Shown here piece after piece: positions 6,425-25,624 of a DNA stretch of 39,308 nt (position 1 is the stretch's first letter; each line of letters starts with the position of its first letter). Below the pieces are notes generated by a model. That model saw only the letters and a list, made by a program, of their open reading frames with translations. It did not search any database and was not told where the DNA came from. This stretch comes from a virus, in the IMG/VR virus record IMGVR_UViG_3300034138_000045, positions 1-39,308 of that record, one strand, 5' to 3'. The position numbers were made by a program, and so were the translations under genes.

Positions 6425-7552
6425 ATGCCAGAAGCCCAGACGATCGACATCGAGCCCGAGGGACCACGCCCTGAGCGCGTCCCGAGCCCCTCGCGAAGGA
6501 ACACGACCGACTCACTCATCGAGTCGGTCCTCGACTCGCTCGGTCCTGACAACGACAACGGGACCAAACCAGCCGAGGAGCCACGCGCCAAGCGTGGCGC
6601 ACCAGAGCGCGACGAGCAGCAGAGCGAGGTCGAGCAGCCGGTCCCCTCGGAGACCGAACCCGACGACGCCGAAGGCGAGCCAAAGAGCGCTGAAGAACCG
6701 GAGGAGAGCGACGGGCATGGAAAGCTAGGGTCCAAGGAAGACCCGTTCACGGTCAAAGACCTGCCGAAAGATGCCTTCATCGAGCTGAAGGTCGACGGCG
6801 AGAAGCTGACCGTATCCATGGACGAGCTCGCCGCGGGCTACATCCGCGAAGCCACGTTCAATCAGCGGATCAACAAGACGAAACAGCTCGCCGACGAGGC
6901 GCAGGCCGCACTCGGCAAGGCGAAGGAGACGCAGCAGAAGACGCGCGACGCGTTCCGCGAGTTCGTCTCGGACCCGGAGCAGCTCTACGAGTTCTTCCTC
7001 GCGAGCGAAGACCGAGAACAGATTCTGCAGGACGTCGCGGTGCGGTACGCGGCGCTCGTCCGCAAGTTCAGGGAGAACCCGGCCGAGAAGCTCGCGTTTC
7101 AGCGCCAGCGCGACGTGCAGCGGCTCAACGCCGAACGCGAGCACTTCGAAGCTCAGAAGCGCGCCGAGATGGAAGAAAAGCAGCGCAATGAGATGGTGCA
7201 GCGCGCGCAGTCTATCTTCCGTCCGGGCTGGGAAGCGGGGCTCAGAAAGGCCGGGTTTCCGCAGCCTACCAAGGAGCTGTACGAAGAGGTCATGGTGCGC
7301 TGCAACCAGCGTGCAGCGACCGGCGCTCCTGTCACGAGCGACGACGTGACCGACTTCGTGGTGCGTGCGGCGAAGCTGCTCGAGCTGCCGCCAGCGAGCG
7401 CACGCGGCAAGCCGAAGCCCGCGCCCGCTGCGCCTCCGAAGCCCAAGCCCGAAGCTGCACGCAAGAGCGCGTGGGCCGACGTGCCGGTCAGCAAGAAGCG
7501 TCGGGACCCGGAATTTTTCCTGCAGAACCTCAAGAGTCGCGACTTCAGGTAG
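6425..7552 (+). CDS. Scaffolding protein
   Basis: 375 residues directly after the portal with a GAGGAG ribosome site. The first 110 residues are acidic, Pro/Glu-rich and disordered. A compact segment with FTVKDLPKDAFIELKVDGEKLTV-like strands follows, then a long Lys/Glu/Gln helical region (roughly residues 150-270) that should form coiled coils. The C-terminus is Pro/Lys-rich and basic, as in P22 scaffold, where the basic tail binds coat protein. Position and composition support an internal scaffold that leaves the procapsid. Unusually, the capsid gene is not next but about 4.5 kb downstream. Confidence 0.8.
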   Translation: MPEAQTIDIEPEGPRPERVPSPSRRNTTDSLIESVLDSLGPDNDNGTKPAEEPRAKRGAPERDEQQSEVEQPVPSETEPDDAEGEPKSAEEPEESDGHGKLGSKEDPFTVKDLPKDAFIELKVDGEKLTVSMDELAAGYIREATFNQRINKTKQLADEAQAALGKAKETQQKTRDAFREFVSDPEQLYEFFLASEDREQILQDVAVRYAALVRKFRENPAEKLAFQRQRDVQRLNAEREHFEAQKRAEMEEKQRNEMVQRAQSIFRPGWEAGLRKAGFPQPTKELYEEVMVRCNQRAATGAPVTSDDVTDFVVRAAKLLELPPASARGKPKPAPAAPPKPKPEAARKSAWADVPVSKKRRDPEFFLQNLKSRDFR

Positions 7553-7654
7553 TCTCAGGTTTGCCGGCGTTGTGGTGCGCGAGGAGATCTCGCGTCAAGG
7601 GAAACGGCGGGCTGTTGCTGGCCCGAGCCACCTCATGAATCAGAGCCGGCTGTT
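7553..7654. other. Gap between convergent genes with two small hairpins
   Basis: This 102-base stretch separates the scaffold gene from a minus-strand operon that runs toward it. A 6-bp stem with a 5-base loop lies at 7578-7594 (CGCGAG paired to CTCGCG) and a 5-bp GC stem at 7608-7625. Neither is followed by a T-run, so if they end transcription they do so weakly or with Rho. Confidence 0.4.
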
Positions 7655-7810
7655 TTACCCGAACCTCGCGCCGCCGAACACGCCGAGCAGCGCCAGCAGC
7701 ATGAGCAGCAGCACCACGCCGAACAGCACGAGCGCGAGGCGCGACGGCAGCCCGAGGCGCTCACCGAGCAGCACGCACAGCGCGAAGAACACGAGCCACG
7801 CGAAAATCAT
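7655..7810 (-). CDS. Two-segment small membrane protein
   Basis: 51 residues, too short for many gene callers. It reads as two hydrophobic helices (residues 2-15 and 25-46) joined by a short GERLGLPSR turn with positive charge, ending in GGARFG. Its ATG overlaps the stop of the upstream minus-strand gene by 4 bases, which supports real translation. The layout resembles small class II holins or membrane-targeting inhibitors, but it is far from the lysis genes. It is the last gene of the short minus operon. Confidence 0.6.
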   Translation of the reverse strand: MIFAWLVFFALCVLLGERLGLPSRLALVLFGVVLLLMLLALLGVFGGARFG

Positions 7811-8022
7811 GGTTCACCTCTGGCGGTTTGAATCAGACGCGTCAGGTGCAGCGTCACACGGTCGTCGCGCAGCGCCTGGTAGTCGACGAGCATCTCGGCG
7901 AACGGCGCGAGAATCTCCTCCCTGTAATGGGCCAGGATGCGCGCGAAGCGGTCGCGCGAAGCTTCATCTTGGCCCATGACCCACAGCGCGAGATCCTGCT
8001 CGCGCGCATTCGGCTCAGGCAC
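7807..8022 (-). CDS. Small helical protein of unknown function
   Basis: 71 residues from a GTG. Almost all of it is predicted helix with many charged residues (EASRDRFARILAHYREEI and a second similar helix). No family is recognised. Bases 8009-8026 around its start are shared exactly with 27818-27835 in another minus-strand gene; both copies encode a VPEPN peptide, though here the Val codon is the proposed start. The gene is translationally coupled to the downstream membrane protein. Confidence 0.6.
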   Translation of the reverse strand: MPEPNAREQDLALWVMGQDEASRDRFARILAHYREEILAPFAEMLVDYQALRDDRVTLHLTRLIQTARGEP

Positions 8023-8036
8023 GTCGATGCACCCTA

Positions 8037-8474
8037 CTACGGGCGCCGGTCTTCTCCCGACTGAACCTCAACGCCGGGGGTCTCCGAGTGGTCCTGCGCG
8101 CCGACGATCTGATCGAACTCCTCCCAGTCGGCCTGCCGCGGGCCACCAAGACGCGTACGCGACTGCCAGCCGCGGAGCTTCTCGAGCCGCTCCTCTGCGC
8201 TCATCGTGTCGAGAGACCCGACGCTCTGGGTCTGCGCGGTGTCGCCGCGCTGGCTGTCGGGCGTGGTCGTGGTCGATGCGCCCTGGTTGAGCTGCGAGAC
8301 GGGCAGGCTCTCGCCGGTCACGCCCTGCTGGCCGCCCTGGCTCGGCTCGGTCGATGCCGTGTCCTGGGGCTCGCTACCCGGCCGCTGTGCGGCGGCCTCG
8401 TTGTGGGGATTGGACTCCGCTGCCGCGTCGTCCGTCTCGCGGTTGCTCCCGCCCAGCCAGCTCTTCTTGCTCAT
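8037..8474 (-). CDS. Disordered Ser/Thr/Gln-rich protein
   Basis: 145 residues. The first 90 residues are low-complexity, rich in Ser, Thr, Gln, Gly and Asn, and should be disordered. The last 55 hold a short helix (MSAEERLEKLRGW) and an acidic tail. The ATG has an AGAGGAG site 6 bases upstream. Its first 101 bases overlap the end of the HNH-like gene in another frame, an unusually long overlap, so one of the two genes may be degenerate or its end mis-called. No function can be given. Confidence 0.5.
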   Translation of the reverse strand: MSKKSWLGGSNRETDDAAAESNPHNEAAAQRPGSEPQDTASTEPSQGGQQGVTGESLPVSQLNQGASTTTTPDSQRGDTAQTQSVGSLDTMSAEERLEKLRGWQSRTRLGGPRQADWEEFDQIVGAQDHSETPGVEVQSGEDRRP

Positions 8475-8967
8475 GGAGTCTCCTCTTGGCCCGCTCCACC
8501 ATCTGGTTGCTGACCAGGCTGTGGGCTTCGGCTACGCAGGATAGATTCCCACAGGTGCGCACGAGAAAACATCCATGAGGCAGGGGCTTCTTGTGTGTCA
8601 GCGACCACACGACCACGTCCGCCCGCGCGCTGCCGTAGGCGCCGGCTCGAACGCGCGGATAGACGTCTGTCCCGTACATGAGCATGTAGGAGCCAGTCCA
8701 GACCCAGCAGCCGTCGGGGCGCTTGTCGACGTTAGGCTCGATGCGCGCCCAGTCGTAGCAGCGGGCGTCGTCCTTCACGCGGCGCGCGGCGCGCTGCTCC
8801 TTGCCCATCTTGGCGCGGTGCGCGCGCTGGTAGGCGGCGTACTGCGCGCGCTTGTGCGCCAGGCGCTCCTCGGGGCTCATCGCCTCGAGCGCTTCTCTCG
8901 CGCGCTTCTGCGCGGCCCACTCTTCGATGGTCGTTGGCTCGGTCGCCCTTCGGCTCCGCTTGGGCAT
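8374..8967 (-). CDS. HNH-like endonuclease, possibly degenerate
   Basis: 197 residues. The N-terminal half is a basic helix-rich region with an MSPEERLAHKRAQYAAY stretch. The second half has the phage HNH framework: a GCWVWTG motif and a CxxxCGNLSCVAEAH cluster. The residue normally His before the first cysteine pair (VCH-R-C-D-N in active relatives) is Arg here (LVRTCGN), so the first catalytic His of HNH may be lost. The last 34 residues overlap the next gene and are Arg-rich, suggesting a drifted C-terminus. It heads a minus-strand operon diverging from the XRE genes by only 31 bases. It may be a relic homing nuclease. Confidence 0.65.
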   Translation of the reverse strand: MPKRSRRATEPTTIEEWAAQKRAREALEAMSPEERLAHKRAQYAAYQRAHRAKMGKEQRAARRVKDDARCYDWARIEPNVDKRPDGCWVWTGSYMLMYGTDVYPRVRAGAYGSARADVVVWSLTHKKPLPHGCFLVRTCGNLSCVAEAHSLVSNQMVERAKRRLHEQEELAGREQPRDGRRGSGVQSPQRGRRTAAG

Positions 8968-8998
8968 GGGGGCCTCCCTCTGAGACTATGTACGTCCG
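8968..8998. promoter_or_regulatory. Very short divergent intergenic region
   Basis: Only 31 bases separate the HNH-like gene (leftward) from the first XRE regulator (rightward). A GAGGG Shine-Dalgarno for the leftward gene takes part of it. No convincing -35/-10 pair fits for either direction, so promoters probably reach into the coding sequences, or the rightward transcript is close to leaderless. An operator for one of the XRE proteins would be expected here; no clear inverted repeat is visible. Confidence 0.4.
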
Positions 8999-9289
8999 AT
9001 GCCGCGAATCGCGCCAGAGCCTGACCACGTTCTCTACGAGCTGGGCAAGCTCATCAAGCGCCAGCGCATCGCGCGCGGCACGCACCAGTACGACTTCGCG
9101 GCGCTTATCGGCGTGCATATCTCGACGCTCCGGCTCTACGAACACGGTCAGCGGAATCCTCCGATCGACACGCTGGTGCGCATGGCACACGGCTGCGATC
9201 TCGCACTGAGCCAGTTTCTTTCGCCGCTCGATCACATCGAGGTGCCCGTGAGGGAGCCGCGCAAGAACAAGCCGAAGGCTCCGAAGTGA
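8999..9289 (+). CDS. XRE-family helix-turn-helix regulator
   Basis: 96 residues. Residues 10-75 form a Cro/CI-type HTH: LGKLIKRQRIARGTHQYDFA, then AALIGVHISTLRLYEHGQRN as recognition helix and following turn, then the PPIDTLVRMAHGCDLALSQF closing helices. The C-terminus is short and basic, with no peptidase or dimerisation domain, so it is Cro-like in size. It is the first gene of the plus-strand accessory operon and overlaps the next regulator by 4 bases. It probably controls the divergent junction upstream. Confidence 0.85.
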   Translation: MPRIAPEPDHVLYELGKLIKRQRIARGTHQYDFAALIGVHISTLRLYEHGQRNPPIDTLVRMAHGCDLALSQFLSPLDHIEVPVREPRKNKPKAPK

Positions 9290-9768
9290 CGCTCGAGGAG
9301 GTGCGGAAGTTGCTGGAAGAGGCGATGGACTTCCACAGCGAGCACTGGCTCGAGGAGGCGGTCAGGCGTCTCGAGTCGCAGCGGCACTCGCAGCAGTTTC
9401 GCCGCATCTACGACATCACCACCGTGGGGGCGCGCATCAGGACCGCGCGCGAGACGGTCGGGCTCACGCAGCACCAGCTCGCCCGCCGCATGGGGTGGCA
9501 CCCGTGGGCGGTCAGCAACCTCGAGACGGGCCGCAGGAACCTCGACGCCCAGAAGCTCCCAGGGCTCGCCACGTGCCTCATGGTGAGCCGCGCGTGGCTG
9601 CTCATGGAGTCGGACGAGGGCGGGCCTCCCCTGCCCACCAAGGTGCTGCGGAAGCAAAAGCGGGTGAACTGGCAGCAGGCGACCGCGAAGCAGAAGAAGA
9701 AGGCGCGCGCCAAGGCCGAGCTCGAGCGGCTCAGGGGGCTGAGGCCGCCGAAGGAAACAAAGCCATGA
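9286..9768 (+). CDS. Second XRE-family helix-turn-helix regulator
   Basis: 160 residues from a GTG overlapping the previous stop. A helical N-terminal arm (residues 1-45) precedes an HTH at about 47-105: GARIRTARETVGLTQHQLAR followed by RMGWHPWAVSNLETGRRNL. The C-terminal 50 residues are Lys/Arg-rich and helical. No LexA-type autocleavage site is visible. Two XRE proteins in series could be a repressor/antirepressor pair that sets the lysis versus maintenance choice; the sequence does not say which is which. The gene ends inside the first octamer repeat upstream of parA. Confidence 0.8.
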   Translation: MTLEEVRKLLEEAMDFHSEHWLEEAVRRLESQRHSQQFRRIYDITTVGARIRTARETVGLTQHQLARRMGWHPWAVSNLETGRRNLDAQKLPGLATCLMVSRAWLLMESDEGGPPLPTKVLRKQKRVNWQQATAKQKKKARAKAELERLRGLRPPKETKP

Positions 9769-9789
9769 CGTCATGACGTCTTGACGCCG
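9766..9789 (+). repeat. Three tandem 8-bp repeats upstream of parA (candidate centromere/operator, site 1)
   Basis: Three contiguous octamers: TGACGTCA, TGACGTCT and TGACGCCG. The first is a perfect palindrome. They lie between the stop of the XRE gene and the parA start. In type Ib partition systems (ParA with a ribbon-helix-helix partner) the centromere is a set of short direct repeats upstream of parA that also acts as operator. A related copy with two octamers is at 10576-10591. The match of position and repeat style is good; binding is inferred. Confidence 0.7.
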
Positions 9790-9816
9790 CGAGCTTATTT
9801 CGCCACAACCGCCTAC

Positions 9817-10458
9817 ATGGCAACCATAACTTTTGGCGGGCAAAAAGGGGGCGCGGGCAAGACCGCGCTCACCATGCACCTGGGCGCGGAGTGGCTGCGC
9901 CGGGGAAGGAGCGTGCTGCTGGTCGACGCCGACCCGCAAGCGCACGTGCTCAAGTGGCACGGCATCGGAGTCGCGAAGGACCAGCCCGTGCCGGGCGTGG
10001 TGGGCGTCGGAGACGGGCTCAGGGCGGTCGTAGGGCCGCTCTCGCGCCAGCACGACGTGACCATCGTCGACACGGCCGGGCGGCACAGCCGCCGCCTCGG
10101 TGGGGCGCTGGCCATCACCGACCTGGTGCTCTTGCCGGCCAAGCCCGAGCCCGGCGACGTGTGGTCGCTCGAGGACTCGATCGAGCTCGTGCGCGAGGTG
10201 CAGCACGTGCGCCCCGACATGCGCGCGGCCATCGTCATGTGCTGCACGCGTGCGACCCGCATCGGCAAGGCGGCGCGCGACGCCATCGCCAAGGCCAAGA
10301 TACCGGTCCTCGGCACGAGCCTGCGGTACTTCGTGACCTACAGCGAGGCCCAGGCGGCGGGCAGGGGCGTGTCCCTGTACGCGCCCAAGTCGCAGGCGGC
10401 CGACGAGCTGCGCGCGCTGGCTGATGAGCTTGAGGGGTTGCTCCATGTCGCGGCGTAG
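9817..10458 (+). CDS. parA: ParA/Soj-family partition ATPase (type Ib size)
   Basis: 213 residues. The deviant Walker A KGGAGKT is at residues 10-16, the A' motif LLVDADPQA near 34-42, and Walker B VTIVDTAGR near 84-92. There is no N-terminal HTH, and the length fits type Ib ParA proteins, which work with a small ribbon-helix-helix centromere binder. Such a gene follows here with a 14-base overlap. ParA proteins bind DNA non-specifically with ATP and move plasmid copies apart. The ATG at residue 13 of the longer open frame was chosen because the deviant Walker A normally starts about ten residues from the N-terminus. A partition ATPase is a hallmark of extrachromosomal prophages. Confidence 0.9.
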   Translation: MATITFGGQKGGAGKTALTMHLGAEWLRRGRSVLLVDADPQAHVLKWHGIGVAKDQPVPGVVGVGDGLRAVVGPLSRQHDVTIVDTAGRHSRRLGGALAITDLVLLPAKPEPGDVWSLEDSIELVREVQHVRPDMRAAIVMCCTRATRIGKAARDAIAKAKIPVLGTSLRYFVTYSEAQAAGRGVSLYAPKSQAADELRALADELEGLLHVAA

Positions 10459-10786
10459 CCAGGTGGAACTCAACCTTGGGGGGAGCGTCACGCAGCCGGC
10501 GCCCGAGCCCGTGGCCCGCGCCATCGAGGACCTGTTCTCGCGAGACGGGGAACGACGGGCAGGGGAACAACGCCATGACGTCACGACGCCGCAAGCTCGC
10601 GTCGGCAGTTGGGCGCGTCCGCGCGTACGCCGCTCGGATGGGGTCGAGACGCGCGCGACCACGGTGCACCTGCCGATTGACCTGGCCGAGGCGCTCGACG
10701 CTATCCGCATCCGAACCCACCGACGGCTGAGTGACCTGCTGGTGGAAGCGGCGCGCGAGAAGTGGGCCGGAGGGAGGACCAAGTGA
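10445..10786 (+). CDS. Ribbon-helix-helix protein, probable ParB/ParG-type centromere binder
   Basis: 113 residues; the ATG lies 14 bases inside parA. The C-terminal part (about residues 70-108) is a clear RHH/CopG unit: a strand with TRATTVHLPI, then helix DLAEALDAIRI and helix RRLSDLLVEAAREKW. The N-terminal 65 residues are Arg-rich and low in structure, as in ParG and omega-type partners, where a mobile arm stimulates ParA. The second set of octamer repeats lies inside the coding sequence of this arm. Partition partner is inferred from fold, size and position. Confidence 0.75.
   Translation: MSRRSQVELNLGGSVTQPAPEPVARAIEDLFSRDGERRAGEQRHDVTTPQARVGSWARPRVRRSDGVETRATTVHLPIDLAEALDAIRIRTHRRLSDLLVEAAREKWAGGRTK
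10576..10591 (+). repeat. Second octamer site inside the RHH gene (site 2)
   Basis: Two adjacent octamers, TGACGTCA and CGACGCCG. The similarity to site 1 runs wider: 10563-10583 matches 9753-9773 at 19 of 21 bases, and 10584-10597 matches 9782-9795 at 12 of 14. The only large difference is one extra octamer in site 1. Conservation inside coding sequence suggests a DNA-level function or a copy made by duplication. Confidence 0.65.
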
Positions 10787-11007
10787 AGGATTGGAACTAC
10801 TGCGTTCACGACAGCCGCTACAACATCAAAAGCAGCTGGAAGACTTTTATTCAGGCGCAGAAGGAGGCAAAGAAGCTCGCGGGCGACGGCGCCGAACTCG
10901 TGCGCTGGGTCCACGACGGCGCGGGCGGCAAGGTGTTCGTCTACGGCGGCCCCAGAGGCGAGTTTTCGGTGAGCCACGGCGAGCACGTCATGGTGGGGTC
11001 GCTGTGA
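10783..11007 (+). CDS. Small protein of unknown function
   Basis: 74 residues from a GTG overlapping the RHH stop by 4 bases. An aromatic N-terminus (KDWNYCVHDSRYN) is followed by a helix (FIQAQKEAKKLAGDG) and a beta-rich second half (ELVRWVHDGAGGKVFVYGG). It looks like a compact globular domain. No family is recognised. Coupling to the partition genes suggests it belongs to the same accessory operon. Confidence 0.6.
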   Translation: MKDWNYCVHDSRYNIKSSWKTFIQAQKEAKKLAGDGAELVRWVHDGAGGKVFVYGGPRGEFSVSHGEHVMVGSL

Positions 11008-11219
11008 AAGACGCCGAAGCGTACCTAGCCGAGCTGACGCTGCTCTCTCGCAAGCACGGCGTCGAGCTTGTGCTGGCCGTGCTCGACTCGGGCAGCGGCA
11101 TCGTGTTCGCCGGCCCGCACCAGGGCCAGCAGCTGCGCGAGGTGCTTCAGTATCTCTTGCTGGCTCAGTCGACCGACCCCGAGCGCGTGGTGATGCCCAT
11201 CTCGAAGGCGGACGCGTGA
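11004..11219 (+). CDS. Small protein of unknown function
   Basis: 71 residues from a GTG overlapping the upstream stop by 4 bases. The order is helix (AEAYLAELTLLSRKHG), strand (VELVLAVLDSGSGIVFAGP), helix (QQLREVLQYLLLAQ), a simple alpha/beta domain. No family is recognised. It is coupled on both sides within the accessory operon. Confidence 0.6.
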   Translation: MKDAEAYLAELTLLSRKHGVELVLAVLDSGSGIVFAGPHQGQQLREVLQYLLLAQSTDPERVVMPISKADA

Positions 11220-11548
11220 GCCGCGAACGGAAGCGCCAGGAGCTGCGCCGCAAGCTCGGGCCGAAGATGAAGCTTGAGTACCGCCATGCGGGGGCGTCAT
11301 GCCCGGCATGCGGCTACGTCTTCAACCTCGGCTTCTCCACGTACAGCGAGCAGGGCCGTAGCTCGTGCAAGACCGGGGAGACCTTCACCGTCTGCACGCG
11401 CTGCCGCCGCGTCCTGATCGTCGCGGACAGCGGAGCCATCCGCTTGCTCGACGAGACGGGCAAGCTGCTGCTCACCCCAGACGACCTGAAGTCCCTCGAC
11501 ATCATGCGCGAGCTTCTCGAGGTCGCGGGATACGACGACCTCTCGTAG
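11216..11548 (+). CDS. Zinc-ribbon protein
   Basis: 110 residues. CPACGY near residue 25 and CTRCRR near residue 60 make a two-knuckle zinc ribbon, with a basic N-terminal helix before it (RERKRQELRRKLG) and a helical C-terminus (DDLKSLDIMRELLEVAG). Zinc ribbons of this size often bind nucleic acid or proteins of the transcription machinery. It is the last gene of the accessory operon and is followed by a hairpin. Confidence 0.65.
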   Translation: MSRERKRQELRRKLGPKMKLEYRHAGASCPACGYVFNLGFSTYSEQGRSSCKTGETFTVCTRCRRVLIVADSGAIRLLDETGKLLLTPDDLKSLDIMRELLEVAGYDDLS

Positions 11549-11628
11549 CTCTCGCCAGCGAGAGTTGACGCCCACGCCCACTCGGGGCGAACATGGCGTG
11601 GCCTTTCCAGGACACCATAGTGGCTGAG

Positions 11629-11665
11629 AGCCCGACGCGTTTTGCCTACCGTGGCGCGTCGGGCT
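11629..11665 (+). terminator. Strong 11-bp hairpin at the end of the accessory operon
   Basis: AGCCCGACGCG (11629-11639) pairs perfectly with CGCGTCGGGCT (11655-11665) around a 15-base loop and is followed by TTCGCTTTG. It lies about 80 bases after the zinc-ribbon gene and could end that operon. Its right arm and loop also contain the last codons and stop of the minus-strand gene, so it may serve both strands. The T-run is weak. Confidence 0.55.
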
Positions 11666-11891
11666 TTCGCTTTGCGCGCTTGGGCTCGAACAGCGCGATG
11701 AGCCTGGTCGGCAAGATCCAGTGGTCGGGCTTGTCGGGGCGCCGGTTGCAGAGCGCGCCGCAGTCCTCGCACCAGAGCCAGGACGCGTGGTCCTTTGTGC
11801 CCTCGCCGCCCGTGTAGGACAGCATGCGCTGCTTCACGTGCTCGCGGCAGCGCCGGATGGCGTCGGTACGTGCCTTAACGCTTGCGCCCAT
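11646..11891 (-). CDS. Lone minus-strand small protein with CxxC motif
   Basis: 81 residues. The N-terminal half is a basic helix (KARTDAIRRCREHVKQRML). The middle has WLWCEDCGALC, a possible zinc knuckle, and the C-terminus is basic (KRAKRKPDAPR). No ribosome site stands out before the ATG; a later ATG (residue 23) is possible. It is the only minus-strand gene between the accessory operon and the capsid gene. Codon use fits its neighbours, which supports it being real, but no function can be named. Confidence 0.55.
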   Translation of the reverse strand: MGASVKARTDAIRRCREHVKQRMLSYTGGEGTKDHASWLWCEDCGALCNRRPDKPDHWILPTRLIALFEPKRAKRKPDAPR

Positions 11892-12083
11892 CGGCTGAGT
11901 TGACGGCCTACACGCGGCACGCGCAAGATTTACGGCGAATCAGCACTCAAGACATTCCCGCGACGAAGTCCGAGGAGCTCGCTGCACCGCCCCGTGAGGG
12001 CGTCTGGTCCAAGCGAGTAAGCCCGGTAGGTCTGACCGTGAGCCGTCGAGAGTCACCACACCCTGCACCGTGGAGACGCTCCG
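11892..12083 (+). promoter_or_regulatory. Leader of the capsid operon, candidate promoter
   Basis: 192 bases without a gene. A TTGACG box at 11900-11905 is followed 18 bases later by CAAGAT, a weak -35/-10 pair reading toward the capsid gene. TTGACG also occurs at 11565 and 9781, each in intergenic DNA. A GGAGAC ribosome site precedes the capsid ATG. A strong late promoter is expected here because the capsid gene is separated from the upstream morphogenesis genes by an accessory module. Confidence 0.4.
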
Positions 12084-13391
12084 ATGACTACTGGCACAGG
12101 CACGAATACTGATTATGCAAGAGGCTTTGAACTACTGAAGCGTGTATACGCTGATAAGGTAGAAGACCTCGTCCCCGAGAGCGACCGGCTAGCGAAGGAC
12201 ATTCCTTTCATCGCAGCCGATAAGCAGCCCGGTCAGGACTATTATCAAACCGTTACGCTCACCAGGGAAGGCGGCATAACCTGGTGGAATGATGGCAGTA
12301 TTAAGACTTTGAACCAGCCGCTTTCGACGGCAGAGCTCTCGGCGAGTATCAGAGGTTCTGAAATCGCTATCAGAGCAGCTTTATCGTACAAGTTCATGCA
12401 CTCGGCGCTCAAGCAGCTCGACGGCACGCGAGCGGGTGCGCGGGCGTTCGTCAACGCCACGAAGGACCGCTTCGAGAAGCTCACCAAGGGCGCGAGCTAC
12501 GCGCGTGAGTGCATGCTGCTGTACGGCGGCGGCACGGGCGCAGTCAGCAACCTCGGCGTCGTCGCCAACACCACTGGCAGCGCGACCACGAACCTCGTGG
12601 TGCAGATGGCGGCAGCAGACTACGCGACGGCCATCTGGTCGGGCAGCGAGGGTCTCGAGTTCGACATCTACTCGACGGCCGGCGCCAAGCGGAACACGGC
12701 GGGCACCACCAGTGACACGGTCTTCAAGCTGACCGGCACCGATCCGACGAACTACCGCGTCACCTTCACCAGCCACGCGACCAACGTGGCTGCGGTCGTC
12801 GCGACGGATCAGATCTTCTTCGCGGGCGCACGCGGCAACGACGCCCTCGGGTTCGTGGGCGCAGGGCTCACGCAAACGGGTTCTTTATGGGGAATTTCTA
12901 CCACCACTTATGGATTGTGGAAGCCCACGGTGATCAACGTCGGCGGCGCGCTCACCTTCGCCGCGGTCTCTGAAGCGGGCGCTACCGTCGCGTCGGTAGG
13001 GCACTACGGTGACTACGATTTGTACCTAAATCCGGCTACTTTTGCAGACGTCTGCGACGACCAGACGGCCCTCATCAGCCACACGACCAAGTCGAGCGGC
13101 AAGCTGACGATCGGCTTCGACGACGTCGCGTTCAAGTCGCAGGCGGGCACGGTGTACCTCAAGCCGCATCCCTACATGAAGCGCGGCATCGCGCTCGGGC
13201 TGCCGCGTGACCTGTGCATGCGCGTCGGCGCCACCGACCTCACCCACACGATGCCGGGGTTCGGCAAGATGTTCAGGGAGCTCGAGAACGCGGCGGGCGT
13301 CGAGATGCGTCTGTACACCGACCAGGCGCCTTTCTGCCAGAACCCGAAGTTCGTCACCGTCTTCACCGGCATCACCAACACCACCGACTGA
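12084..13391 (+). CDS. Major capsid protein
   Basis: 435 residues. The size, the position before the adaptor and nozzle genes, and the coat-like pattern support this: an N-terminal helix (GFELLKRVYADKVEDLVP), an extended loop region (QPLSTAELSASIRGSEIAI), a long helical spine (KFMHSALKQLDGTRAGARAFV), and strand-rich domains to a C-terminal GITNTTD tail. It likely adopts the HK97 fold with an inserted domain, as in P22-like coats. Codon use is unusual: roughly 12100-12400, 12880-12920 and 13010-13045 are AT-richer with rare codons (AGA, TTA, ATA, AAT) compared with the GC-rich remainder. Confidence 0.85.
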   Translation: MTTGTGTNTDYARGFELLKRVYADKVEDLVPESDRLAKDIPFIAADKQPGQDYYQTVTLTREGGITWWNDGSIKTLNQPLSTAELSASIRGSEIAIRAALSYKFMHSALKQLDGTRAGARAFVNATKDRFEKLTKGASYARECMLLYGGGTGAVSNLGVVANTTGSATTNLVVQMAAADYATAIWSGSEGLEFDIYSTAGAKRNTAGTTSDTVFKLTGTDPTNYRVTFTSHATNVAAVVATDQIFFAGARGNDALGFVGAGLTQTGSLWGISTTTYGLWKPTVINVGGALTFAAVSEAGATVASVGHYGDYDLYLNPATFADVCDDQTALISHTTKSSGKLTIGFDDVAFKSQAGTVYLKPHPYMKRGIALGLPRDLCMRVGATDLTHTMPGFGKMFRELENAAGVEMRLYTDQAPFCQNPKFVTVFTGITNTTD

Positions 13392-17423: not shown

Positions 17424-18062
17424 ATGGGAAACTCGGGAAATATTGTTGGCGACGTTTTCGGAGCCTGGGGCGAAGGCGAGAGGACCAAAAAGAACATCAA
17501 GGCGACCGAGCGGCAGCGTAAGGCGAATCTCGCCCTGTTCGACAGCCTCGACTACGAGCCGATGTACGCAAGCCAGCTCGTGCCGCCCATGCAGCGCACG
17601 CAGAGCCCCGTGGCGCGCAGCTACCTCGAGAGCATGCTGATGGGGAGCAACCCCGACAGCACGATGAGCACGCGCCCGAACGCCGCCGCGACCAAGGCGC
17701 TTCAGCAGCGGCAGCAAAACGCGATGTTCGGCACGCCCGAGGCCCGCGTTGCGCAGCAGCGCGCGCTCGAGCAAAGGCCGATGTATGAGGTCGCGACGCC
17801 AACGCGTAAGGTGGGAGGCGACGACGCGCAGCGGAAGAAGCAGTCCTACATCGCGGGGCACCCAGAGGCGGCCGGCATCGGGGTCACCGCCGAGCTCGAA
17901 AGGGCGTGGATCGACAAGTTCGGCGGCAAGGGTCTGCAGGACGACCCGTTCGCGTACGCCTCGTTCCAGAAGGCGATCGGCAACGGCTGGACGCCCGAAG
18001 ATCTGACCGCGTCGATCAACCGGGGCGAGGGACTCAAGTTCTACGCCCGGAACAAGAAGTAA
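17424..18062 (+). CDS. Putative internal virion (ejection) protein, small
   Basis: 212 residues. The first 70 residues are helical and basic. The centre is Gln/Arg/Ala-rich (KALQQRQQNAMFG), and the C-terminus has a compact motif (GKGLQDDPFAYASFQKAIGNGW). The gene heads a run of three larger low-complexity helical proteins between the nozzle and the fibre, the usual place for podophage ejection proteins. Role is by position and composition. Confidence 0.55.
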   Translation: MGNSGNIVGDVFGAWGEGERTKKNIKATERQRKANLALFDSLDYEPMYASQLVPPMQRTQSPVARSYLESMLMGSNPDSTMSTRPNAAATKALQQRQQNAMFGTPEARVAQQRALEQRPMYEVATPTRKVGGDDAQRKKQSYIAGHPEAAGIGVTAELERAWIDKFGGKGLQDDPFAYASFQKAIGNGWTPEDLTASINRGEGLKFYARNKK

Positions 18063-18074
18063 GGAGGGGCAGCC

Positions 18075-20006
18075 ATGGCCGGTTTCAAGAAGGGTTTTAG
18101 CGCGCCGCCTGTCGGCCCGACGCCCGAGGAGCTGGCGCTCCAGGAGCAGGCGGCGGCGGCGTTCGGCGCGCTGTCGGGCGGCAACCTGTTCGAGACGGCT
18201 GGGCAGATGGCCGAGCAGCAGCGCGCAGCGGCCGATCCGACGTACGGCATGAGCCCTGAGCAGCTGGCGACGTTCCAGCAGAACGCCGCGCGCGATACGC
18301 GCTTCGGCAATGACATGGCGTGGCTCGACCCGGCGTTCCAGCAGCAGGCGGCGCTGCTCGGGTTGTCGGCCGGCAGCCAGGCGCAGAGCGACCCCATGGC
18401 GCAGGTCGCGCAGTACGGCGCGATGAACTCGGCGGCGGGCCTTGCGAACTCGCCGCTGCAGTTTCAGGGCTCGGGCGCGCAGCAAGCGCTCTCGAACCAG
18501 TGGGCCGGGGTGCAAGCGGGGCAGGGTGCGCCCCAGTTCATGGGGGGCGCGCAGCAAGACGCGATGATGCGGCAGCTTCTCGGCGTGCAGGCGCCGCAGT
18601 TCTCGGGCGACGCTGACCAGCGCGCCGTGATGAACCAGGCGATGGCGTTCGGGAGCAACACTGGACCCAACTCCCTCACGTTCGACACGAGCGGGCGCCA
18701 GGGCGAACAATACGGCAACCTGCAGGGAATCATCGCGGGCGGCGGCGCCGACACGATGGAGCGCGCCGCGCGTCAGGCCCAGCGTGCGGACCAGGAAAGC
18801 TGGCTGCGTGGGCAGCGTGAAGCCGATATGAGCGACTACGCCGAGCGCGGGCTGACCGGTAGCGGCATGGAGCTGCTCGCGCTCTCGGGCGACCGGCAAG
18901 CAGCAGCGGGACGCAACAGCCTCGCCGACCTGCAGACGGCTGCGGCGCTCGAGGAGCGCAGGCTCGGCGCCATCAACTCGGCCGCTGGGCTCGCGAGCAA
19001 CATGCGCGGGCAGACCACCGACGAGCAGTCGCTTTTGAACCAGCGCGCCACCACGGGTCTCGGGGCGGCCTCGAGCGTCGCCAACGCGATGCGCGGCGCC
19101 AACATTCAGGAGCAGACGTTCCTGAACGAGTCGGCACGCGAGCAAGCGCTGCAGGCGGCCGGAATTGCCTCGACGTCGCGCGGGCAGGGGATGCAGGAGC
19201 AGAGCTACCTCGACCAGCGCATGCTCAACGCACTCTCGCAGCAGACGGACTTGCAGACCCAGATGCGCAACCAGCAGTACCAGGAGCAGATGGGCGGACG
19301 CGAAGCGACGCAGTCGGCGCTCGGGCTGCAGGCGCAGATTGCGAACCAGGCGCGGACGAGCTCGGCCCAGGAAGACCAGTTCCGGGCGGGCTCGGCCGAC
19401 CAGTTCTCGGTTCTCAACCAGGCGGCAGTGAACGCGGCGACCGGCGCCAACACCAGCTTTAGGCAGAACGCCTACCAGCAGGCGATGAACAATCGAACGA
19501 CCGTGGGGATCAACGACGCGAACCGGAACGCGAGCGCTGCCAGCACGCTGTTCGGCGGCGACGTCGCCGACAACGCGGCAGCGGCGAGGCAGGCGTATCA
19601 GACCGGCGCAACCACGAGCGACCAGTTCAACGGCGCGCAGGCCAACTACAACGCGGGGCTGACGGGCATGGCCACCGACGCGAACAACCAGGCGCTGCAG
19701 GCGCAGGCAGCGCGCAACGCGCAGCAGGCAGAGGCGCTTCGCACAGGCGGCAACGCCGTCGGCAGCTTCGCAATGTTCGGCCTTGGCGCATCGGGCGGCG
19801 GCGCGGGCGCTGCCGGTGGTGCCGCTGGGGCAGCGGGCGGCGCGGCGGCAGCTGGCGGCGGCAGCGCCTACAACCTCGGCAACTTCGCTTCGCAGCTCAA
19901 CCTGGGCGGGGCTGGTGCGAGCGCCGGCACGCCGCAGAACACGGGAGCCGTGGGCGGCTTCAACCTCGGCAACTACAGCGAACAGCTCAGACGCGGGAGT
20001 TACTGA
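18075..20006 (+). CDS. Internal virion / ejection protein (Gln/Ala/Asn-rich)
   Basis: 643 residues with a GGAGG ribosome site. It is an almost continuous helical protein rich in Gln, Ala and Asn (residues 20-560), with irregular repeats, for example LLNQRATTGLGAASSVANAM and FLNESAREQALQAAGIAST. A Gly/Ala-only segment follows at about residues 570-590, which could insert in a membrane. The C-terminus has a short repeat, NLGNFASQL near 605 and NLGNYSEQL near 633. Such proteins leave the head with the DNA and line the channel through the cell envelope. Its stop overlaps the next start by one base. Confidence 0.65.
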   Translation: MAGFKKGFSAPPVGPTPEELALQEQAAAAFGALSGGNLFETAGQMAEQQRAAADPTYGMSPEQLATFQQNAARDTRFGNDMAWLDPAFQQQAALLGLSAGSQAQSDPMAQVAQYGAMNSAAGLANSPLQFQGSGAQQALSNQWAGVQAGQGAPQFMGGAQQDAMMRQLLGVQAPQFSGDADQRAVMNQAMAFGSNTGPNSLTFDTSGRQGEQYGNLQGIIAGGGADTMERAARQAQRADQESWLRGQREADMSDYAERGLTGSGMELLALSGDRQAAAGRNSLADLQTAAALEERRLGAINSAAGLASNMRGQTTDEQSLLNQRATTGLGAASSVANAMRGANIQEQTFLNESAREQALQAAGIASTSRGQGMQEQSYLDQRMLNALSQQTDLQTQMRNQQYQEQMGGREATQSALGLQAQIANQARTSSAQEDQFRAGSADQFSVLNQAAVNAATGANTSFRQNAYQQAMNNRTTVGINDANRNASAASTLFGGDVADNAAAARQAYQTGATTSDQFNGAQANYNAGLTGMATDANNQALQAQAARNAQQAEALRTGGNAVGSFAMFGLGASGGGAGAAGGAAGAAGGAAAAGGGSAYNLGNFASQLNLGGAGASAGTPQNTGAVGGFNLGNYSEQLRRGSY

Positions 20007-21820
20007 TGGCTCGGCTTCCGCTCTCTACGTACTACCAGGACCCCGACGAAGAGGAGCGCCGCGCGCTGCTCGAGCAGGAGTTCGGCCCGCCCGTCGCGTA
20101 CCCGAACCTCGGCGTCATGAGCAAGGAGGAGATCACGGCCGCTGACATCGAGGCGGCCCGTGCGCGCGCGGATGAGCCCTGGCCCGAGTCTCCGCGACCT
20201 CCTGGCGGCACCGACTACGTGGAGCCCGAGCTTGTGCAGCGGCAAGAGGCAAGCGCGCTCGACGAGCTGCTGTTGCCCCGCACGGTGGCCACCAACCCGT
20301 ACGAGGACGAGCCCGACCCGCAGGACGTCGCCGCTGACACGGTCGACGAGCGCGAGACGCCGCCCGCGCGCGGCATTCGTGAGAGCGCAGACGAGAACGC
20401 AGCGGGGCTGTCACCCGGCAAGCTCTCTCTGAGCTTTGACCCCGTGGAGGAGCTCTCGCGTCTGCGGCAAGAGGGGCCGCGCGACTGGCGCAACGTCGCC
20501 GACGTGACGATGAACGAGGGCGGCCCCAATCCCGACCTGATGGGGTACAAGCACCCGCTGAGTGAGCGCGACACGGCCAGCGCTCGCGCCGCGGAGCTCT
20601 ACGGCGAGGCGACGCCCACCTCGCGGTGGGAAGACGACTTTCTCGCCAACCACGAGCGCGCGCCCGACAGCGACATCCGCATGCGTTCGGCGATCGCCAC
20701 GCTGCTCGGCGGACCCGAGGAGGGGCGGCGGTTCTCGGACCACGAGCGCAAGCTCAGCGAGGGCTACGAGAAGAGTCTCTACGAGGCGCGCGAGCGCGAC
20801 CGCAGCGAGCAGCGCGTGAGCAAGGGCCTCGCTCAGGCCATCGCCGCGAGCGACCTCGGCATCTCGCCGGAAGAGGCCGTGCAGCTGCGCATGAACGACC
20901 CGATCGTCAAAGCGTTTCAGAACGGCGGCTACTCGCAGGGGCTGCGCGGCGAGGGCCAGCAGATGGGCCTCACGAAGAAGGTGTGGGACATCAACGCGGG
21001 CGCGGCGACTGCCGAGATGCGCGACAAGGGCATGACCGAGCGCGGCCTGATGAACAACGCGAACCAGCTGCAGATCGCGCAGACCTACGCGAACGCGCGG
21101 AGCAAGCTGCCTGACCCGGCTGACCCTGTCGCGCAGGCGAAGGAACTAGAGCTGCAGGGCTCAGTCCTTGCGCGCTCGATGCAGGGCATCAGCAAAGAGC
21201 AGGGCATGCGCATCGTGCAGGGAGACCTGAGCGGCCTGACGCCCGAGCAGAAGGACCACGTCGGCAAGTTCTTGCCGGGTATGCTCGCGGGGCTCGGGAA
21301 CCAGAGGACGCGCGATTCCATCATCCGCGGGTTCACGACGTTTGAGACGCAGAAGGAAGCCAAGCGCGAGAACGCGGTGCGGCAGTCTATTGAACTCGCG
21401 CGCAACGACCTCGCCAAGGCCGAGAAGTGGGAGCACAGCTGGAAGGCTTCGGCCATACCGCTCTCGATGGCGATGCAGTCGTGGGGCGAGATGAGCGAGG
21501 ACAGCAAGGCCGCGTTCGCGCAGTGGTCGACGCAGGGGTTCGCAGGCGCCGTGAACAAGTTTCTCACCGACCCCGGCGACCAGCAGCGCGCAGCCAAGGT
21601 GCGCCGCGTGATCAACGCGCTGGTCAAAGACCGCTCGGGCTCGGCTGTCACTGGCAGCGAGTGGGAGCGCATCGCGACGGAGATCGGGCTACCAGAAGGC
21701 TCGTGGGCGCCATTCAACTCGAGCGACACCATCACGCAGCACCTGCAGGACTCAGCGAGTTTGCTCGATGCGCACCGCGCGGACTACGAGACGATCCTGG
21801 GCGGCTGGAAGGGGAACTAG
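20006..21820 (+). CDS. Internal virion / ejection protein, large
   Basis: 604 residues, starting at an ATG that overlaps the previous stop. The first 190 residues are acidic, Pro/Glu-rich and disordered; the remainder is long charged helices (for example QAKELELQGSVLARSMQGI). No lytic transglycosylase or peptidase motif is seen. It belongs with its neighbours in the ejection cluster. Podophages commonly encode three such proteins of decreasing similarity; here the three are adjacent. Confidence 0.55.
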   Translation: MARLPLSTYYQDPDEEERRALLEQEFGPPVAYPNLGVMSKEEITAADIEAARARADEPWPESPRPPGGTDYVEPELVQRQEASALDELLLPRTVATNPYEDEPDPQDVAADTVDERETPPARGIRESADENAAGLSPGKLSLSFDPVEELSRLRQEGPRDWRNVADVTMNEGGPNPDLMGYKHPLSERDTASARAAELYGEATPTSRWEDDFLANHERAPDSDIRMRSAIATLLGGPEEGRRFSDHERKLSEGYEKSLYEARERDRSEQRVSKGLAQAIAASDLGISPEEAVQLRMNDPIVKAFQNGGYSQGLRGEGQQMGLTKKVWDINAGAATAEMRDKGMTERGLMNNANQLQIAQTYANARSKLPDPADPVAQAKELELQGSVLARSMQGISKEQGMRIVQGDLSGLTPEQKDHVGKFLPGMLAGLGNQRTRDSIIRGFTTFETQKEAKRENAVRQSIELARNDLAKAEKWEHSWKASAIPLSMAMQSWGEMSEDSKAAFAQWSTQGFAGAVNKFLTDPGDQQRAAKVRRVINALVKDRSGSAVTGSEWERIATEIGLPEGSWAPFNSSDTITQHLQDSASLLDAHRADYETILGGWKGN

Positions 21821-21823
21821 GCC

Positions 21824-23251
21824 ATGGCCGACAACGACCCGTACGGGATTCGCTCAGGCGGCATCGTGCCGCGTCACGGCCCCGCTGCCGATGACCCGTA
21901 CGGCATTCGTTCGGGCGCCATCGTGGCCAAGCGGCGCGCGACCAAGCGGCCCGACGAGGACGATGAGGAGACGACGCTCGCCGTCGCCACCGCTGAAGAG
22001 TTGCCGGAGACTCCGGGCCCCAAGCCGACGCCAGGGCGCGAGGAGCGCACGCCGAAGCCGCCGAGCCTCACGGACGAGATCGCCGACAGCGCGACCAGCT
22101 TCGCGCAGGGCTCCACGCTCAACTGGATGGACGAACTCCTCGCGCTCACCAACCACAAGCTCGGCCTGAACGGCGGCGGCTCGCTCGAAGAACAGCGCGA
22201 GATGGCCAAGAGCATGATGGCTGCCAAGACGCGCGCATACCCCGTCGCTCACGGCGCCGGGCAGGCGTCCACGGGGCTGCTTACGAGCGCGATGCTGCCC
22301 GCAGGCGGCGGCGTCGTCGCCCAGGGGCTGCTGCAGGGCGGGCTCCAGGGCGCACAGAGCGCGGCGAGCTCAGTCGGCGACGACATGCCGCTGTCCACCG
22401 TCGCAGCCAACACGGGGATCGGCGCGGCGTCTGGCGTGGCGGGCGGCGTGCTCGGCTCGAGCGTCGGCAAGCTGCTCGCGCGCACCCCCTCGCAGCAGCT
22501 TGAGAAGGAACTCGCCCAGCTCGCCGCCGAAGGCAGGCGTGCAGGCCCGCGCGTGGCGATGCCGCGCCCCGAAGCGCCGCCCCCTCAGCCGCCCGTCGTG
22601 CCGCCCGGTCGCCAGACCGTGCGCAACTACGACCTCGGGGAGCTCGAGGCGCTAGGCGCCCCGAGAGCGCCTCAGCTGCCCCCGGAAGAGGTGGCCAAGG
22701 CGGGCGTGCGCGAGACGGTGGCGCTCGAGCGCCAGGCTGCCGCCGCGCCAAGCAGCGTAAAGGGACGCGTCGGCGACGCGATCCTCGGGGTCGCGCAGTA
22801 CGCGCCCATCCCAGGCATCCCGAGCGCGGCGCGGGCGACACGCGGGCTGCTCCAAGGGTTCCGCGCAGCGCAGGCCGAGGCGCGCGGAGCGCCAGCGAGC
22901 CAGCTCATCCCGAATCTCGACGCAGCGCGCCGGGTGACGGGCGCGACCGAGCTCGCGAGCGAGCTTCTGCCGCCCGGCATCACCGGCAGCAAAGCCAACG
23001 CGCAGGACCGCGAGCTCGCGCGCGATCAGACCGCCTACGCCGACGCCCCGGCGATGAACTACGCGCTGAGTGCGACGCTCTCCACGGGCAACACGGGCCT
23101 GTCTGAAGCCGACGAAGCCGCGCTCACGAAGGCGGTGGTGAGCGGCGACCAGGCGGCCATCAACGCGGCTGATTTTCGGCTGCGGCAGCGCTATCCGGCA
23201 TACGCTCGGCGGGTCGAGCGCGAGCTACGCGGCCTCAACGAGCAAGAGTAG
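21824..23251 (+). CDS. Putative ejection protein with N-terminal duplicated motif and Gly-rich membrane-like core
   Basis: 475 residues. The N-terminus has the motif DPYGIRSGGIV (residues 5-15) repeated as DPYGIRSGAIV (24-34). After an acidic/Pro-rich linker comes a Gly/Ala-rich stretch of about 100 residues (GVVAQGLLQGGLQGAQSAA and GIGAASGVAGGVLGSSVGKLL) that can cross or disturb a membrane. The C-terminus is helical and charged (RRVERELRGLNEQE). Duplicated short N-terminal motifs like this often contact a partner protein in the virion. Function is inferred from position. Confidence 0.55.
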   Translation: MADNDPYGIRSGGIVPRHGPAADDPYGIRSGAIVAKRRATKRPDEDDEETTLAVATAEELPETPGPKPTPGREERTPKPPSLTDEIADSATSFAQGSTLNWMDELLALTNHKLGLNGGGSLEEQREMAKSMMAAKTRAYPVAHGAGQASTGLLTSAMLPAGGGVVAQGLLQGGLQGAQSAASSVGDDMPLSTVAANTGIGAASGVAGGVLGSSVGKLLARTPSQQLEKELAQLAAEGRRAGPRVAMPRPEAPPPQPPVVPPGRQTVRNYDLGELEALGAPRAPQLPPEEVAKAGVRETVALERQAAAAPSSVKGRVGDAILGVAQYAPIPGIPSAARATRGLLQGFRAAQAEARGAPASQLIPNLDAARRVTGATELASELLPPGITGSKANAQDRELARDQTAYADAPAMNYALSATLSTGNTGLSEADEAALTKAVVSGDQAAINAADFRLRQRYPAYARRVERELRGLNEQE

Positions 23252-23262
23252 GGGGAATCATC

Positions 23263-23616
23263 ATGCAAGCTACGACAGCGCGTCCGCTCGGAGACTCAGG
23301 GGTCGCCGGCAACCTCGCCGCGACGCGTATTTTTGGGCCGTTCCCGGTCAAGAGTTCGCGTCTGTCGATCATGGCCAGCTGGACCGGCACGCCGACGGGC
23401 GTGTTTTCGCTCGAGTGCGCGTTCGATGGCGCGACGTGGGTCACGGTGCCGGGGGCCGCGGCCGAGTTCACCGCGAACTCGCAGGCGCAGCCGGCAGGTG
23501 GCGCAGGATCGGCCGTGTGGAACTGGATCAACGTGCCCGGCAACCTCGCGCGCATCCGCTACACGGCGACTTCGGGCACGGGCACGCTGATCATCCGCGC
23601 GGCGCAGGGGGTCTAA
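23263..23616 (+). CDS. Small beta-sandwich virion protein (decoration or fibre-base candidate)
   Basis: 117 residues. It is Gly/Thr/Ala-rich with evenly spaced strands (RLSIMASWTG, GVFSLECAFDGATWVTV, LARIRYTATSGTGTLIIRA). This pattern is common in small phage structural proteins placed just before the receptor-binding gene. Its stop abuts the GTG of the LamG-like gene. No exact family is recognised. Confidence 0.6.
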   Translation: MQATTARPLGDSGVAGNLAATRIFGPFPVKSSRLSIMASWTGTPTGVFSLECAFDGATWVTVPGAAAEFTANSQAQPAGGAGSAVWNWINVPGNLARIRYTATSGTGTLIIRAAQGV

Positions 23617-25161
23617 GTGGTCACGGCGCTCGGCACGCGGCTCGGGACGCGCCTTGGCACCACGGTCGGGTCGCTGACTGACGTGCCGTACGTGCCCACG
23701 TTCGACGCGACCAAGATGTACGCGATCAGCGGGTACACCGCGGCCAACTACTACGCGACGCAGGCGACGGGCGGCGAAGCGGGGGTAGTGCCCTTTGGCA
23801 TCGCGATGCTCGTGCGCATGACGTCGCTGCCGGTCGCCGCGAACATGCTCGCGCACAAGAGCACCACGGCCTACGCGGGCTGGCAGATGTACGTGGGCAG
23901 CACGGCGGTCATGAACTTCTACACGGCGCTGTCGGGCGGCGGGCTTGCCAACTCGCCTTCGCGCACGTGGACCAGCACCGAGATCAACCGCGTCTCGCTG
24001 GTCATCGGCATCAAAGACACGACGGTCGACCGGCTGTGGGTGGACCGAAAGGAGATCGGAACGGGCGCAGCCGCCGCTTCGTACCAGGCGGCAGCGGTCG
24101 CGCAGATGCTCGGCATGAGCTACAGCGCGGCGCCTGCGTCGGCGTTTCAGATCCTTGGGGAGCTGTCGTTTCAGGGCATGCCCACGACGGCGCAGCTCGA
24201 GGCGTTCTACGACGCGGCGCGCACGCTCGGCGACATCCCGACGACCATCGGCGGCGCGACGGTGACCCACCGATGGAGCGTCAAGTCGACGCTGGCTGCG
24301 GCGAACGTGGCGGTCAGCGAGGCGCAGAACGCGCCCGCGACGCTGCCGGACACGGTGACGGCTGCGGCGGCGGACGCGAACACGCGGGTCGGCGCGGGCG
24401 CGTTGCCCGTGCGCATCCTGGATCCCGCGACGCCCAAGCTGTTCAGCTACGAGACCACGCCCGTGTTCCGCGGCGCCGACACGCTCACGAGCGCCAACTA
24501 CTTTGTCTCGGTCGACGATGACGCGAGCAACGCGCTCGGGTGGTGGTTTGCGTGGCTTGGGTACTTGCCGACGCTCACGCAGGCAACCGCCATTATCGCG
24601 GGCGCGGCGTCGGGCAGCACGGGTTGGGACCTGCGCCCGAGCGCCAACAGCGCGACGCTCGCGTGGTTCATGGGCGACGGCACTGCCTACACGACCTCGG
24701 GGACTGCGGTGGTCACACTCGACCGCATCAACCTGATTGTCGGCGTGTGGGACCAGGCGAACCTGAAGCAGCGCACGTACGCAAAGCGGCTCGAGGTGTC
24801 GACGGGCGTCACGCGCACCGCGTACGCGCCGCCGCCTGCAGGCACCAAGATCGGCCTCGGCCGCTCGCCACGCGACCCGGCGAGCGCGGTCGGCACGCGG
24901 ACGCACCTTGGGTTCGCGCAGGGCACGGGCACGCCGACGCTTGCCAACGTCCAAGCGCTGTTCGATGCGGTGGCGACGAACGAGAGCATGCAGGCGATGC
25001 CGGGGGTCACCACGACGTCGCTCATCGACCTGACGGCGGACGTTGCGGGGGGCGGTGGCGCGCTTCCGGCGACGCTCACCAACCGCGCTGGCGGCAATGG
25101 CTTCACGCGCACAGGCTCGCCTGTGCTGTCGAACATCTACTCTCGTGGTTTCGCCTGGTGA
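23617..25161 (+). CDS. Receptor-binding tail protein with two LamG/concanavalin-like domains
   Basis: 514 residues from a GTG. A short N-terminal stretch with a repeated LGTRLGT motif (residues 5-14) could attach to the tail. Two similar beta-jelly-roll domains follow. The first runs about residues 55-210 and ends with LSFQGMPTTAQLEAFYDAAR. The second runs about 285-465 and ends with THLGFAQGTGTPTLANVQALFDAV. The matching ends show they are related LamG-like modules, which bind glycans or proteins. No depolymerase motif is seen. It is the best candidate for host-surface recognition. Confidence 0.7.
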   Translation: MVTALGTRLGTRLGTTVGSLTDVPYVPTFDATKMYAISGYTAANYYATQATGGEAGVVPFGIAMLVRMTSLPVAANMLAHKSTTAYAGWQMYVGSTAVMNFYTALSGGGLANSPSRTWTSTEINRVSLVIGIKDTTVDRLWVDRKEIGTGAAAASYQAAAVAQMLGMSYSAAPASAFQILGELSFQGMPTTAQLEAFYDAARTLGDIPTTIGGATVTHRWSVKSTLAAANVAVSEAQNAPATLPDTVTAAAADANTRVGAGALPVRILDPATPKLFSYETTPVFRGADTLTSANYFVSVDDDASNALGWWFAWLGYLPTLTQATAIIAGAASGSTGWDLRPSANSATLAWFMGDGTAYTTSGTAVVTLDRINLIVGVWDQANLKQRTYAKRLEVSTGVTRTAYAPPPAGTKIGLGRSPRDPASAVGTRTHLGFAQGTGTPTLANVQALFDAVATNESMQAMPGVTTTSLIDLTADVAGGGGALPATLTNRAGGNGFTRTGSPVLSNIYSRGFAW

Positions 25162-25174
25162 ATCGGAGGTCAAC

Positions 25175-25624
25175 ATGGATCGACTGAATGTGAGTCAGAC
25201 GCGCGTGCTCGAGCTGCGCGCCGAGTGCGAGGGCCTCTACCCTGGCTACGACAAGCCGCTGCCGGGCACGGCGCTGCAGCTGGACGATGACGTGATGTGG
25301 CTCGACATGTTCCCGATGCGCGTGGTCTGGGGGCACGATGGCGCCGACGCGTTCAACGGCTACTGCCCGGACTTCTTCGGCGAGGGGTACTGCAACGTGG
25401 AAGGCGTGTACATCACCGACCGCGCGCCCGCGGACCCGAACGAGACGCCGATGCCGGTCTACCCGCAGCAACAACAGCAGCGGCAGACGTCGGGCGGCCT
25501 GAAGCACGATCGCAAGCGCGCGCTTCAGCACGTGCTCAAGCAGCTCGACCCCGAGCAGGCCAAGAAGGTGCGCGAGTACGTGCGCGGCCAACGGCCCGAG
25601 CTGCTCGACGAAGAAAAGCCGTAA
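25175..25624 (+). CDS. Protein of unknown function with Gln-rich linker
   Basis: 149 residues with a GGAGG site upstream. The N-terminal 85 residues look globular (aromatic and acidic: WLDMFPMRVVWGHDGADAF). A Gln-rich linker (PQQQQQRQ) is followed by a charged C-terminal helix (RALQHVLKQLDPEQAKKVREY). It lies between the fibre and the holin and overlaps the holin start by one base. It may be a small tail or lysis-timing protein; neither is shown. Confidence 0.6.
   Translation: MDRLNVSQTRVLELRAECEGLYPGYDKPLPGTALQLDDDVMWLDMFPMRVVWGHDGADAFNGYCPDFFGEGYCNVEGVYITDRAPADPNETPMPVYPQQQQQRQTSGGLKHDRKRALQHVLKQLDPEQAKKVREYVRGQRPELLDEEKP

Follow-up and report, generated by a model that had tools for sequence, protein, structure and literature searches.

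A type Ib-like partition cassette with two tandem octamer sites in a divergent and probably extrachromosomal phage

Genes of the cassette and their surroundings

The window, meaning the whole stretch of DNA analysed here, is an IMG/VR virus record of 39,308 nt (IMGVR_UViG_3300034138_000045), of which 39,181 bases are unique. It contains a parA gene, an overlapping downstream gene for a ribbon-helix-helix (RHH) protein and two sites of tandem octamers (Table 1). Since the first 127 bases of the record are repeated as its last 127 bases, and joining the two ends completes the reading frame of the helicase-loader gene that is cut off at the record end, the assembly represents a complete circle. 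Such an assembly is compatible with any phage that has permuted ends or passes through a circular form, and alone it is no proof of a plasmid.

Genes for the large and small terminase subunits, portal-like, scaffold-like and capsid-like genes and an amidase endolysin gene identified the genome as that of a phage. The phage is unclassified and its lineage is deeply divergent. No DNA-level relative of the genome was found in the phage collection and no DNA match to bases 1-24000 in the plasmid collection. Single-protein scans of viral contigs with the ParA, RHH, capsid and initiator proteins recovered no close relatives, and the scan with TerL detected distant relatives only. The cassette belongs to an island between the scaffold-like and capsid-like genes, which are usually adjacent. 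Elsewhere in the genome, an HNH endonuclease gene is followed by a RecE-like exonuclease gene (34376-35892; phrog_412, 3.1e-42). A row of large genes (17424-25624, up to 643 aa) had no Pfam or PHROG match; they probably encode tail proteins or other components of the virion of a divergent phage.

Table 1. Positions of the cassette, its octamer sites and other features discussed in the text
Feature	Position	Strand	Description
Island	7553-12083		HNH endonuclease gene (8374-8967, minus strand), two XRE genes and par cassette; lies between scaffold-like (6425-7552) and capsid-like (12084-13391) genes
XRE-type HTH regulator 1	8999-9289	+	96 aa; Pfam HTH_3, 4.3e-11
XRE-type HTH regulator 2	9286-9768	+	160 aa; Pfam HTH_31, 2.4e-10; stop codon overlaps first octamer
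Site 1	9766-9789	+	Contiguous octamers TGACGTCA TGACGTCT TGACGCCG directly upstream of parA; putative centromere/operator
parA	9817-10458	+	213 aa; deviant Walker A QKGGAGKT; no N-terminal HTH
RHH protein gene	10445-10786	+	113 aa from ATG 10445; alternative start 10424; putative centromere-binding partner
Site 2	10568-10591	+	In-register octamers CAACGCCA TGACGTCA CGACGCCG inside RHH gene; 802 bp from site 1
Probable replication initiator	37649-38659	+	336 aa; precedes DnaC-like loader; iteron-like repeats inside gene
Iteron-like repeats	38080-38131	+	11-bp direct repeats, 4.7 copies; inside initiator-like gene
DnaC-like helicase loader	38646-39308, continuing over record ends	+	phrog_3277, 1.7e-12; frame closes in joined circle

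The ParA sequence begins almost at its Walker A motif, and family matches start at residue 1-4 (Pfam CbiA, 1.5e-14; PHROG_164 ParA-like, 2.4e-34). The equivalog NCBIfam NF041546 (ParA_partition) matched over the full length of the protein with 154.9 bits, below its curated cut-off of 180. The best solved relatives were ParF of TP228 and another ParA. The original prediction of a small ParA with a deviant Walker A and no HTH, preceded by two XRE regulators, was borne out by these matches and by those of the regulators to Pfam HTH families. No sigma-70-like promoter was found near the cassette.

The start of the RHH gene is best placed at 10445, which corresponds to a nearly invariant methionine in the alignment of relatives, and not at 10424. 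The overlap with parA is 14 bp from the former start and 35 bp from the latter. AlphaFold predicted a beta-alpha-alpha arrangement for the C-terminal half of the protein, and pLDDT exceeded 90 within this fold. A fold search with this model matched mostly ribbon-helix-helix proteins, including CopG, Arc, CdbA, MatP and ParG (1p94), with Z of about 4-6 over about 41-55 residues, as is expected for so small an RHH domain. The RHH protein of plasmid pSa001 was a detectable homologue (43% over 49 residues). As a query on its own, the protein retrieved nothing beyond chance from phages, plasmids or solved structures. The RHH gene predicted to overlap parA downstream is thus upheld by the overlap and the fold matches. 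The HMM searches that had been proposed as a check succeeded for the ParA families CbiA and PHROG_164, but the RHH_1 match of 18.1 bits stayed about 2 bits under the cut-off of 20.5.

Octamer sites and their register

The stop codon of XRE-type regulator 2 contains the start of the first octamer of site 1. Taken singly, TGACGYC occurs in the genome at least as often as expected by chance (23 observed vs. 18.4 expected). As an array, site 1 was the best of period 8 in the genome, its score being reached by only two of 392 tiles, which overlap and both contain site 1. The three contiguous TGACGYCN octamers reported upstream of parA in the original prediction were therefore real and non-random as an array. 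Site 2 had been overlooked. In an ungapped comparison it agreed with site 1 at 24 of 28 positions and was the best match to it in the genome; matches as good were found for 11 of 3000 random 28-mers of the genome. Scored against the consensus YGACGYCR, each site reached 23 of 24, and 200 simulated genomes never exceeded 21. Since this consensus was built from both sites, the simulation is partly circular and the 28-mer test is the independent one. Sites 1 and 2 were the two best such arrays of the genome, both within the cassette, and no further octamer array was found in the genome. Chance as an explanation for the octamers was rejected by the tile scan, the 28-mer null and the simulated genomes.

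A profile of seven ParAs recovered 80 viral contigs, and the loci of 75 of these were inspected together with six reference loci. A small reading frame overlapped or closely followed parA in all inspected loci but one. Pfam RHH families, including ParG and Omega, matched many of the small downstream proteins tested (ParG in 14 of 47). In the 110 bp upstream of parA, self-agreement among 65 non-redundant, mostly viral loci peaked at shifts of 8, 16 and 24 (z of 20, 15.5 and 13), with no excess above z 2 at other shifts from 4 to 30. A weaker period-8 signal (z 6.5) was detected in the 150 bp downstream of parB. The octamer motif varies among these loci and the 8-bp step is common to them; thus the octamer register is a general feature of such cassettes. 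In loci L036 and L037, TGACGTCG-type octamers adjoin TGACGTCT upstream of parA. Plasmid pSa001 (L003, 3500-3990) has a very long AAGCTCAC/GAGCTACC array upstream of parA, far longer than that of the window. In another locus (L028, 5955-6898), an array of TGCGCATT upstream of parA is accompanied by a larger one downstream of parB.

The ParA of the window grouped with those of pSa001, pMF1 and L014-L016, in a loosely supported group. Its nearest relatives include the ParAs of the myxobacterial plasmids pSa001 and pMF1, a kinship that is the sole hint at a myxobacterial host.

Site 2 could have no function, having arisen by accident in the coding sequence or as a recent duplicate, which would be compatible with the function proposed below for site 1. 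The bodies of parA and parB in the relatives showed little period-8 signal (z 2.7 at period 8 for parB), so that second sites inside parB are not general. Even so, we regard a site without function as rather unlikely, in view of the rank of site 2 as the best genome match to site 1, with only 4 mismatches in 28, and of its three in-register octamers.

Integrase search, replication module and lifestyle

No match to Pfam Phage_integrase, Resolvase or Recombinase or to phrog_1 was found in six frames of the complete circle. This agrees with the original prediction, which had noted no recognisable integrase in the genome and had proposed such a search. The ResT-TelK catalytic family was likewise not found in six frames of the genome, and a linear telomere phage of the N15/VP882 type was rejected for lack of a protelomerase.

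The region at 37.6-39.3 kb is a candidate lambda O/P-like replication module with a lambda-type origin, judging from its gene content and repeats. The initiator protein had no match in family searches, and its AlphaFold model was poorly supported (mean pLDDT 49.9). Directly after the iteron-like repeats comes the AT-richest part of the genome (38132-38190), with its AT-richest 40-bp stretches, and an AG tract lies within 38080-38190. Lambda-type origins serve lytic growth too.

The type Ib layout claimed in the original prediction holds in every part that sequence and fold can test: a small ParA with deviant Walker A and without an N-terminal HTH, a downstream, overlapping gene for an RHH protein (by its fold and its pSa001 homologue, with Pfam RHH_1 below cut-off) and a non-random repeat array upstream of parA as putative centromere/operator. 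The same layout occurs in plasmid and phage relatives. We consider it probable that the cassette is a type Ib-like partition system and that the phage is temperate, its genome being kept as a circle outside the chromosome when dormant. Because the genome has a partition cassette and no integrase-family match, the dormant form is probably a free circle passed to both daughters, and we infer a phage-plasmid lifestyle with a likely extrachromosomal prophage.

In the proposed mechanism, each octamer of site 1 and of site 2 in the RHH gene would be occupied by one RHH dimer, and the resulting nucleoprotein complex would form the centromere. Since site 1 directly precedes parA, the complex could also be an operator through which the RHH protein represses the operon that encodes it. 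Nucleoid-bound ParA-ATP would capture the complex, and the flexible N-terminal tail of the RHH protein may stimulate ATP hydrolysis. The circle would thereby be moved and inherited by both daughters, with copies supplied by the putative lambda-type initiator/loader module.

The cassette alone is no proof of a plasmid prophage, because tyrosine recombinases are present in 14 of the 48 related contigs from viruses, the closest (L014-L016) among them. A working partition system might thus not be the basis of plasmid life: the phage could integrate by an unrecognised enzyme or a host recombinase, or be virulent, with the cassette as cargo or an aid to infection. The recombinases beside related cassettes are in keeping with this, as are the several large proteins without a family match and the island at 7.55-12.08 kb, which includes an HNH endonuclease gene and separates the scaffold-like from the capsid-like gene as inserted cargo would. 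However, the recombinases of the relatives may be plasmid resolvases and not integrases, no tyrosine or serine recombinase family was found in six frames of the complete circle, and two XRE regulators lie directly upstream of the cassette. We judge this explanation improbable.

It is more doubtful still that the octamers, of which site 1 has only three and which directly precede parA, serve solely as an autoregulatory operator of the parA-RHH operon of the kind exemplified by the MetJ met boxes (the octamer presumably resembles the met box AGACGTCT), with the true centromere elsewhere or absent, since the genome has no other octamer array, site 2 lies inside the RHH gene away from any obvious promoter position, and the ParB of pMF1 binds similar octamers before its par operon and elsewhere.

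Returning to the partition reading, its boldest form is a myxobacterial phage-plasmid in which half of the centromere is embedded in the coding sequence of the protein that binds it. The complex at site 2 would then act on the transcription of that gene and tie the supply of the partner to segregation. We put this forward as a speculation that is unlikely to hold.

Significance and comparison with known systems

With this genome, phages that rely on a type Ib-like partition system in place of an integrase would gain a deeply divergent lineage, linked through its ParA to plasmids of myxobacteria, which are rare. Whatever the motif, cassettes of viruses and plasmids have in common a strict 8-bp register upstream of parA. 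It offers a simple way to find candidate centromeres in uncultured phage-plasmids, and it leads to the prediction that each RHH dimer occupies 8 bp. Provided that the cassette is functional, it may also supply a maintenance module for myxobacterial vectors.

The layout is common to the window, the plasmids pSa001 and pMF1 and the phage relatives. The parCAB locus of pMF1 from Myxococcus fulvus is of type Ib (PMC3235114, PMC7843461). Its RHH-like ParB represses the par operon; the AGATGTCT octamers that ParB binds flank this operon on either side and also lie at other positions, some of them within ORFs, and the par region stabilises plasmids in Myxococcus (PMC3235114). Like the window, pMF1 has a small ParA, a small RHH-like partner downstream and tandem 8-bp repeats. 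Unlike the window, it has parC as a third gene in the place before parA that two XRE genes take in the window, its second iteron block lies downstream of parB and not inside the partner gene, and it is recorded as a plasmid and not as a phage.

Sequence identity to the parFGH system of TP228 is low, although, among solved structures, ParF is the best relative of the window's ParA and ParG was among the RHH fold matches. In the parH array, AT-rich spacers separate the tetramer boxes, whereas the octamers of the window are contiguous and GC-rich. In the RHH system of pSM19035, at least four contiguous 7-bp repeats are needed for full ParA activation (PMC9499535), and the three repeats of site 1 therefore call for caution.

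Among phages, Vibrio phage VP882 and Halomonas phage phiHAP-1 have a type Ib-like parA as the window does, and in VP882 a small downstream gene likewise overlaps parA. Unlike in the window, where none was found, a protelomerase gene adjoins parA in VP882. Mycobacteriophage RedRock and other cluster A phages with parABS are temperate, lack an integrase and maintain an extrachromosomal prophage; their two parS loci consist of directly repeated 8-bp motifs (PMC7157519). The window shares with RedRock a parABS-type cassette, two sites of 8-bp direct repeats and the absence of a detected integrase. The RedRock-type sites have eight repeats each and those of the window three, the phage lineages differ, and replication depends on RepA or an RNA-based origin in RedRock-type phages, compared with a lambda-type candidate in the window. 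The design of the cassette is therefore already known, RedRock having the same, and its main peculiarity here is the second site inside the RHH gene.
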